Assembly: GCA_001567355.1 (NCBI GenBank)
Contig: JYNZ01000003.1
Span: forward strand, 134,655-179,990
Reading direction: 5' to 3'
Length of the DNA: 45,336 nt
DNA from: a candidate division WS6 bacterium OLB20
GTDB taxonomy: Bacteria; Patescibacteriota; Dojkabacteria; B142; OLB20
Below, piece by piece: positions 30,099 to 45,336 of the stretch (the stretch's first letter is position 1; every line of letters starts with the position of its first letter). The position numbers and the translations under genes were made by a program. The notes beneath the pieces are model-generated. The model was not told the origin of the DNA. It ran no database searches and saw only the letters and a program-made list of their open reading frames with translations.

Positions 30099-30175
30099 GG
30101 GTAGTTAGCTCAACTGGTTAGAGCATTCGCTTGACGTGCGAAAGGTTATAGGTTCGAGTCCTATACTACCCACCA
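30099..30175 (+). tRNA. tRNA-Val (anticodon GAC), CCA encoded
   Basis: Cloverleaf by eye: acceptor GGGTAGT/ACTACCC, D-stem GCTC/GAGC, anticodon stem TTCGC/GCGAA with loop TTGACGT (anticodon 30133-30135), T-arm ATAGG-TTCGAGT-CCTAT, discriminator A, then CCA in the genome. Complete and normal. Confidence 0.95.
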
Positions 30176-44901: not shown

Positions 44902-44915
44902 AATTGTTGTTTAAC

Positions 44916-44941
44916 AAAAAAAAACCTCCCTTTCGGGAGGT
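44916..44941 (-). terminator. attenuator terminator hairpin
   Basis: On the minus strand ACCTCCC (44941-44935 region) pairs with GGGAGGT (44930-44924) around a GAAA tetraloop. It is followed by a run of T's (the plus strand has nine A's at 44916-44924). A textbook intrinsic terminator placed between a promoter/leader peptide and the 44901 gene rather than after a gene. Confidence 0.85.
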
Positions 44942-44981
44942 AACATTTATTTATTCTTCTTATACGCCTATGTAACCTCCC
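44935..44981 (-). promoter_or_regulatory. antiterminator stem competing with the terminator
   Basis: On the minus strand GGGAGGTTACAT (44981-44970) can pair with ATGTTACCTCCC (44946-44935) at 11 of 12 positions, with a 23-nt A-rich loop. The second arm is the same ACCTCCC that forms the left side of the terminator, so only one hairpin can form at a time. The first arm lies in the last codons of the leader peptide, so a ribosome reaching the stop would cover it. Confidence 0.7.
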
Positions 44982-45048
44982 ATGCAGAATCAGCCCAGAC
45001 AAAAATGAGCATTGCAATATAGAGGTTGTGACACAGAGACGTATTCAT
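44968..45048 (-). CDS. 26-residue leader peptide with two Trp codons
   Basis: ATG at 45048 to TAG at 44968. Residues 1-12 are MNTSLCHNLYIA and the end is VWADSAWEVT, with Trp at 18 and 23. The -10 box ends 6 nt before the ATG, so the mRNA would begin at the start codon and be translated without a leader. The stop codon directly adjoins the first antiterminator arm. A ribosome held at Trp18 would leave that arm free (terminator prevented); a ribosome finishing at the stop would cover it (terminator forms). Control by charged tRNA-Trp, or by a stalling nascent peptide, is inferred. A second in-frame ATG at codon 13 is an alternative start. Confidence 0.6.
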   Translation of the reverse strand: MNTSLCHNLYIAMLIFVWADSAWEVT

Positions 45049-45054
45049 GCAGTT

Positions 45055-45083
45055 TTTATACCACACAATCAGATATACAGCAA
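45055..45083 (-). promoter_or_regulatory. promoter of the attenuated operon
   Basis: On the minus strand TTGCTG (45083-45078), exactly 17 nt, TATAAA (45060-45055), then 6 nt to the leader-peptide ATG. The -35 box starts right after the stop codon of the upstream HAD-like gene. Confidence 0.7.
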
Positions 45084-45336
45084 CTATATGAGGGCCAAAA
45101 GATCAGTAATCACCCTGTACTCACCCTCTGCAGCAGTTTCAGGAAGCTTCCCGCCCAGCACAGGCTGCCTCTGCATGTGGAGAATCTCCATCCGCGGGAA
45201 GCGTTCACGCATGTCTGTGAGATTACTCAGTCTGTCATCAACAAAGGTGACCCGTTCCTCATTTCCACCGGCAAATACCTGTACAAAGACCTCCATGACC
45301 TCTGGCTTCTGTGCGGCCTCTTTTACAATACTGTAC
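45084..45336 (-). CDS. HAD-superfamily-like protein, C-terminal fragment (5' end outside window)
   Basis: 83 residues are visible, open to the window edge, so the start is missing. The segment EERVTFVDDRLSNLTDMRER resembles HAD motif IV (a DD pair followed by a helix) plus the closing strand FPRMEILHMQR. The rest of the catalytic domain, including motif I, would lie beyond 45336. A phosphatase-type role is possible but not shown. Transcription of this gene would run into the operon promoter and attenuator that follow its stop. Confidence 0.6.
   Translation of the reverse strand, partial: YSIVKEAAQKPEVMEVFVQVFAGGNEERVTFVDDRLSNLTDMRERFPRMEILHMQRQPVLGGKLPETAAEGEYRVITDLLALI

Follow-up and report, generated by a model that had tools for sequence, protein, structure and literature searches.

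The classical scheme of leader-peptide attenuation, in which an untranslated leader terminates transcription, a ribosome stalled on the leader allows expression and completion of the peptide again results in termination, is general knowledge, as is the ribosome footprint employed in the following. Among the described systems closest to the locus analyzed here, rnTrpL of S. meliloti is reported as a leader transcript from trp attenuation with its start at the ATG that opens the leader ORF (PMC7298713), and for ilvBNC of C. glutamicum a set of anti-antiterminator, antiterminator and terminator hairpins with Leu and Val control codons is described (PMC11857589). Actinobacterial leader peptides are reported to precede also a tRNA synthetase gene (leuS; PMC1262725). 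The authors of a survey from 2010 state that they knew of demonstrated leader-peptide systems from Proteobacteria and Actinobacteria only, the atypical ermC leader aside, and themselves added Bacilli (PMC2965389). The Dojkabacteria are counted among the classes of the candidate phyla radiation, or Patescibacteria (PMC12641178). For this phylum, our literature search, with most subscription papers and preprints outside its scope, gave no report on leader-peptide attenuation.

The window, i.e., the whole stretch of 45,336 nucleotides analyzed from the candidate division WS6 bacterium OLB20, very probably contains a real ribosome-mediated transcription attenuator. Judged from its sequence, this is likely a four-arm system that would tie the expression of a peptidase operon to amino-acid shortage.

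Leader elements and predicted switch

All elements named in a preceding sequence-only reading, namely promoter, leader ORF with Trp codons 18 and 23, arms and terminator, are present base for base on the minus strand. The inventory of arms, however, was incomplete, as folding adds a fourth one (45044-45021), for which pairing with arm 2 plus the flank following it is predicted. Leader and downstream genes comprise the following features, where G002 denotes a genome from another genus and G003 a further relative:

45083-45078, minus strand: -35 box TTGCTG (sequence reading; the G002 counterpart TTGCCA is in the same place)
45060-45055, minus strand: -10 box TATAAA, 17 nt after the -35 box, identical in G002
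45048-44968, minus strand: leader ORF MNTSLCHNLYIAMLIFVWADSAWEVT, 26 codons plus stop, core shared with G002
44970-44968, minus strand: TAG stop of the leader ORF (sequence reading)
44997-44995, minus strand: Trp18 codon, predicted to act as control codon (distance to arm 2, 16 nt)
44982-44980, minus strand: Trp23 codon, reaching into the beginning of arm 2, unlikely as control codon
45044-45021, minus strand: arm 1, the anti-antiterminator arm, nt 5-28 of the ORF (folding)
44981-44962, minus strand: arm 2, GGGAGGTTACAT (44981-44970) plus flank to 44962
44946-44935, minus strand: arm 3, ATGTTACCTCCC, common to antiterminator and terminator
44930-44924, minus strand: arm 4, GGGAGGT, 3' arm of the terminator (sequence reading, folding)
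44923-44916, minus strand: T run of the intrinsic terminator (sequence reading, terminator scan)
44901-43234, minus strand: first gene, 555-aa protein without Pfam match; one relative, in G003, at 37%
43212-42328, minus strand: PfkB-family kinase, the C-terminal part of which seems continued in another frame (42422-42126)
42196-41060, minus strand: M20 peptidase (gene annotation)
41000-39834, minus strand: M20 peptidase (gene annotation)
39735-37552, minus strand: transglycosylase/transpeptidase penicillin-binding protein, syntenic in G002, possible end of the operon

The leader ATG at 45048 is located 6 nt past the -10 box. The promoter TTGCTG-17-TATAAA was absent from a consensus scan requiring 4/6 bases per hexamer, because TTGCTG has only 3/6 consensus bases. 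Arm 1 includes the sequence AACCTCT (45027-45021). Within arm 2, the GGGAGGTTACAT part pairs with arm 3 and the flank to 44962 with arm 1 only, and the antiterminator formed by GGGAGGTTACAT and ATGTTACCTCCC has 11/12 pairs with a spacer of 23 nt. The terminator consists of ACCTCCC-GAAA-GGGAGGT and the T run, the latter ending 14 nt before the ATG of the first gene (44901). The whole leader folds better than 200/200 shuffles (z -3.81). A reading of the GGGAGG in arm 2 as Shine-Dalgarno sequence was rejected, as by eye the window does not contain a start codon at suitable distance.

From these elements, transcription is predicted to start at the leader ATG or no more than a few bases away from it, with this promoter being used and the leader being translated without a leader sequence of its own. 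In the untranslated transcript, arm 1 would pair with arm 2, leaving arm 3 free for arm 4, and the resulting terminator would switch the operon off. When charged tRNA is short, a ribosome with codon 18 in its A site would cover about nt 37-64 and part arm 1 from arm 2, allowing arm 2 to pair with arm 3 (11/12 pairs), so that the terminator would be absent and the operon on. Translation to the stop codon would bring the ribosome over arm 2, with pairing of arms 3 and 4 and presumably termination as the outcome. The operon thus controlled would encode the 555-aa protein, the PfkB-like kinase, the two M20 peptidases and perhaps the penicillin-binding protein. Within it, a 98-aa ORF (42422-42126, minus strand) corresponds to the C-terminal portion of the kinase from G003; the PfkB-like gene may be split by a frame change, due to either a sequence error or a broken gene.

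Conservation of the leader and of the genes behind it

At least 71 of 85 genomes gave some match to the leader at E values up to 1, most of them short and many representing terminator pieces. A match spanning the leader was found, among the matches listed, besides the window only in G002 (74% over 164 nt, E 1.5e-20). This orthologous leader has promoter boxes TTGCCA and TATAAA at a spacing of 17 nt and the conserved peptide core MLIFVWANSAWEVN followed by a stop codon. MLIFVWA[D/N]SAWEV[T/N] is kept between window and G002 with identical Trp codons, in these two genomes only and not in G003, the cores differing by one synonymous and two amino-acid changes with a 3-nt indel nearby. The antiterminator of G002 shows 11/12 pairs, as in the window, and by eye two pairs of the helix between arms 2 and 3 have changed in a compensatory way from the window to G002 (C-G to A-T and A-T to T-A). 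The outer part of the hairpin of arms 1 and 2 consists of different sequence in window and G002. In G002, the ATG after the -10 box opens six codons only (MSKNFL and stop), and translation of the conserved peptide requires a GTG overlapping the TGA of this short ORF or an internal ATG; the frame interruption may be real or a sequence error.

Upstream of the 555-aa homologue in G003, a TATAAT box lies 25 nt from the leader ATG of the ORF MKTINSTIFFLIITPN, which ends with a stop at AGGGGGTTAAT. The arm at the ORF end, GGGGGTTAAT, pairs with TTAACCTCC of the terminator, including one G-U, and the terminator itself is TTTAACCTCC-CCAAA-GGAGGTT plus T run. In G003, antiterminator and terminator are thus retained, but Trp codons are missing, although this leader stands before the only 555-aa homologue found. 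Further relatives of the 555-aa protein were found neither in the 85 class genomes by sequence search nor in 81 by profile, nor in viral contigs, and among 379 phylum genomes only the window's own was retrieved. One relative in genome_contigs was taken as G003's own contig on account of its identical length and match. With two sequences, the predicted structure of the 555-aa protein has a mean pLDDT of 32 and is uninformative.

Behind the G002 leader, genes for a 184-aa protein without Pfam match, a 450-aa protein, two M20 peptidases, a 288-aa protein and the penicillin-binding protein are found. The latter is 76% identical to the window protein over 705 aligned residues. For the M20 pairs, 23% over 268 residues are obtained for one and a short weak match for the other, and no significant match exists between the window kinase and the 450-aa gene of G002. 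M20 relatives at 27-29% are present in G001 and G005. The genes behind the leader are thus only partly alike in the two genomes, and the leader is better kept than most of them.

Similar leaders in the class

A pattern of arms 2, 3 and 4 gave 13 matches versus 2 for the reversed control (in 12/85 class genomes), a second arm pattern 38 versus 9 (27/85) and an arm pattern with required T run 40 versus 3 (28/379 phylum genomes; some matches overlap), all of these patterns favouring GGAGG arms. Matches without loci were left out (8 of the set of 38 and 10 of the set of 40, some of them duplicate or overlapping), with the exception of G008:C17, which the first pattern had also given. Loci were available for 57 distinct sites, of which 8 lack a T run and 49 have one. 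In 45 of these 49, a leader ORF with ATG start terminates at arm 2, while the rule gave no such ORF for the other four.

The leader peptides fit the Pfam assignments of the genes behind them, as in the case of HisRS (NHHHLP), LeuRS (LGLLLLRS), ThrRS (FTTTTTG), ArgRS (VRRRNL), PheRS (FSFFFF and IFF), threonine synthase (TITTFTTA), prephenate dehydratase (NFFFFA) and an aromatic amino-acid hydroxylase (YSYYY). Weaker fits are the HisRS leaders L060 with one His and L107 with two scattered His. For statistical evaluation, the 13 of 49 sites with a nameable amino acid were used, 12 of them Pfam-scanned; the other 36 were left out because the amino acid was unnameable or the leader ORF not found. 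These 13 leaders carry 48 matching codons, counted in a zone of 4-36 nt that was chosen after the leaders had been seen, compared to a mean of 12.6 when leaders were drawn from the 45 and of 16.5 when the 13 were exchanged among themselves, with 0/20,000 draws as high in either case. Thereby, L074 (HMGL-like) was counted as what we take to be a leucine enzyme, L097 as ThrRS from its domain pair and L060 as HisRS by its likeness to L059 and without Pfam scan, whereas L043 was scored for Tyr and L113 for Phe or Tyr. For the 13 nameable genes of the class, control codons hence match the amino acid of the gene. The attenuation logic read from the window is backed by this match of codons and genes as well as by the orthologous leader and its compensatory changes.

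In a comparison starting from genes instead, TrpRS loci from the best-scoring 30 matches were inspected, one of which was without readable ORF. Terminator and leader ORF were found at 2 of the 29 readable loci, both Trp-coded (WW and AWRTANFAWR; leaders MKNKIFLLKNMWWQKRI and MKNNLQLNFFIAWRTANFAWR) and, by eye, neither with GGAGG as arm 2. By eye, the AWRTANFAWR leader resembles the window in having one Trp before and one inside arm 2. The rule did not give terminator plus leader at the other 27 readable TrpRS loci, including the window organism's own (L163). In the single genome G034 (contig C1), three TrpRS matches exceed the cut-off of the family.

A strong -10 box (at least 5/6 matches, ending in T, 5-10 nt upstream) precedes the leader ATG in 21/45 class leaders versus 26/513 nearby control ATGs; the TATAAA of the window ends in A and is outside the 21 counted. 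The leaderless start predicted in the earlier reading is thus in line with a habit of the class, but the equivalent ATG of G002 belongs to the six-codon ORF.

Several loci show peculiar arrangements. In G043 (L043), two tandem Tyr-rich attenuators, MTYKTTVTYSYYYLASYGG and, by eye, MDIFKDHQKTIRYYLYYDTRYRS, precede a biopterin-dependent aromatic amino-acid hydroxylase, and in G008 (L055/L076) tandem leaders with two terminators and ORFs are followed by an unknown gene, which has 620 aa in L079. The Ile/Leu-rich leader MKRNITSILIILDLS of L052 (G004) is followed by an apparent second one (by eye). The leader FSFFFF belongs to L108 (G361), where the PheRS alpha chain has an alanyl-tRNA-synthetase-like N-terminal part. 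At L112 and L114, CCTCC/GGAGG terminators without a convincing leader peptide are located directly 5' of rpsB-looking genes, perhaps representing a different control of ribosomal-protein type. A similar layout with different genes behind is found at L099, L100 and L101 (G375, G295 and G251), where an additional inverted repeat, e.g., TTTAGGTAAA...CCTAAAA, separates arm 2 from arm 3 and the peptides end in GGLFR or GGQFS, that of L101 being rich in Leu, Val and Ile.

Sensed amino acid and alternative explanations

In the 13 matched leaders, control codons precede arm 2 by a median of 20 nt, with quartiles of 15.75 and 25. The corresponding values for the window are 16 nt for Trp18, 19 nt for Val17, 22 nt for Phe16, 25 nt for Ile15 and 1 nt for Trp23, and the same residues are found at the same distances in G002. 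A ribosome at Trp23 would therefore cover arm 2. Accordingly, of the two Trp codons named at first, Trp18 is found in the control zone, but Trp23 is within arm 2. Trp as the signal is favoured by conservation of Trp18 in G002 and by the two Trp-coded TrpRS leaders, while Ile, Phe and Val share the zone, and the leader of G003 is free of Trp. Moreover, Trp18 stands alone, in contrast to the codon runs seen in the majority of the 13 matched leaders. On balance, we lean slightly toward Trp18 alone as the control codon, to which Ile15, Phe16 and Val17 could contribute or which they could replace.

A tentative second reading, a variant of the best explanation with which its probability overlaps, is that the same attenuator senses several amino acids or general translation speed via the M-L-I-F-V-W zone. 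Stalling at any of several amino acids would suit peptidases which free mixed amino acids, and I15, F16, V17 and W18 are all positioned 16-25 nt before arm 2, in the range of the matched codons. Other leaders of M20 genes are also mixed or Ile-rich, such as IFSYWHFHHYH (L045/L070) and STIIIIV (L061). However, leaders of nameable genes mostly carry runs of a single amino acid, and the Trp pair with one codon before and one in arm 2 recurs at one TrpRS.

A three-arm switch that is on by default and reports blocked or absent translation in the manner of erm or bmr is improbable. The sequence-only reading had assumed three arms and a default favouring expression, and arms 2, 3 and 4 are in fact the best conserved parts, also in G003. 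However, the predicted hairpin of arms 1 and 2 in the window (leader nt 1-91) has -27.8 kcal/mol and beats 200/200 shuffles (z -3.08), and that of G002 is similarly strong (z -3.79; 1/200 shuffles equally good), whereas in G003 it is weak (z -1.50; 20/200 shuffles equally good). The best fold of the full window leader combines the 1:2 hairpin with the 3:4 terminator at -41.9, compared to -31.2 with 2:3 pairing enforced, and termination is predicted for the untranslated state instead of expression. As a simple duplex, arms 1 and 2 of the window reach only rank 5 among 100 shuffles. In total, 13 of 45 class leaders, window included, have an arm 1 that ranks within the top 5 of 100 shuffles, where about 2 are expected, and 32 do not, so that three-arm members of the class may exist. 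The G002 duplex is among the worst in this test (98 of 100), which results from the rule cutting its leader at an internal ATG, so that arm 1 was left out. With folding of the 1:2 hairpin, the three-arm, default-on model was rejected for the window. Since 1:2 hairpin plus terminator is its best fold, the four-arm attenuator is predicted to follow the classical design, off when untranslated, on when stalled and off when completed.

It is very unlikely that the structure simply serves as the usual terminator for the upstream gene (45084-45335), with ORF and complementarity arising by chance. This gene shares the strand of the leader, for which the scan lists no further terminator-like site from the gene to 44941. 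Over 439 kb of the contig, 22 terminator-like sites were compared; that of the attenuator has the best upstream arm (score 12.0) and none of the others a comparable one indicating a further attenuator, although an equally good arm with score 12 was reached in 2/413 mismatched arm/upstream combinations. Chance does not easily account for G002 keeping promoter boxes, peptide core and 2:3 pairing with compensatory changes, nor for leader codons that match the genes throughout the class. Least probable of all is a ligand riboswitch or T-box overlapping the ORF by accident, since, although alternative hairpins do precede the operon, Rfam at gathering score gives a tRNA (30099-30172) as the single match in the window and no T-box or riboswitch family, and the leader is mostly ORF with a kept coding core.

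Relation to known attenuators

The kind of attenuator proposed for the window is already known, and its spread in Patescibacteria may be the new part. We regard it as an evenly balanced question whether leaderless leader-peptide attenuation is general in Patescibacteria as a control by single amino acids, acting on synthetase, biosynthesis, lineage-specific and perhaps peptide-scavenging operons, with the present locus keeping its attenuator while most genes were exchanged, so that codons would assign amino acids to genes. Should the class be real, the sensing of amino acids by uncultured organisms with reduced genomes would become accessible to direct tests, and leader codons would name the likely amino acid of genes of unknown function, for example those of the window operon.

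To our knowledge, a logic of amino-acid codons is not part of the bmrCD system of B. subtilis. The latter is like the attenuator proposed here in being described as ribosome-mediated transcriptional attenuation, but differs in responding to antibiotics (PMC4191407). Actinobacterial trp and leuS attenuators are closer, with leader peptides, control codons and alternative hairpins, but their Trp leaders are reported to have double or triple UGG repeats, whereas a single UGG is present in the control zone of the window's leader (PMC1262725). The ilvBNC leader of C. glutamicum shares the set of hairpins and is discussed in connection with leaderless initiation (PMC11857589), but it controls branched-chain biosynthesis in Actinobacteria. 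The trpL-trpE(G) leader of S. meliloti, finally, is described as starting at the ATG (PMC7298713), as predicted for the window, but controls trpE(G) in a Proteobacterium, whereas the operon of the window consists of peptidases and unknown genes.
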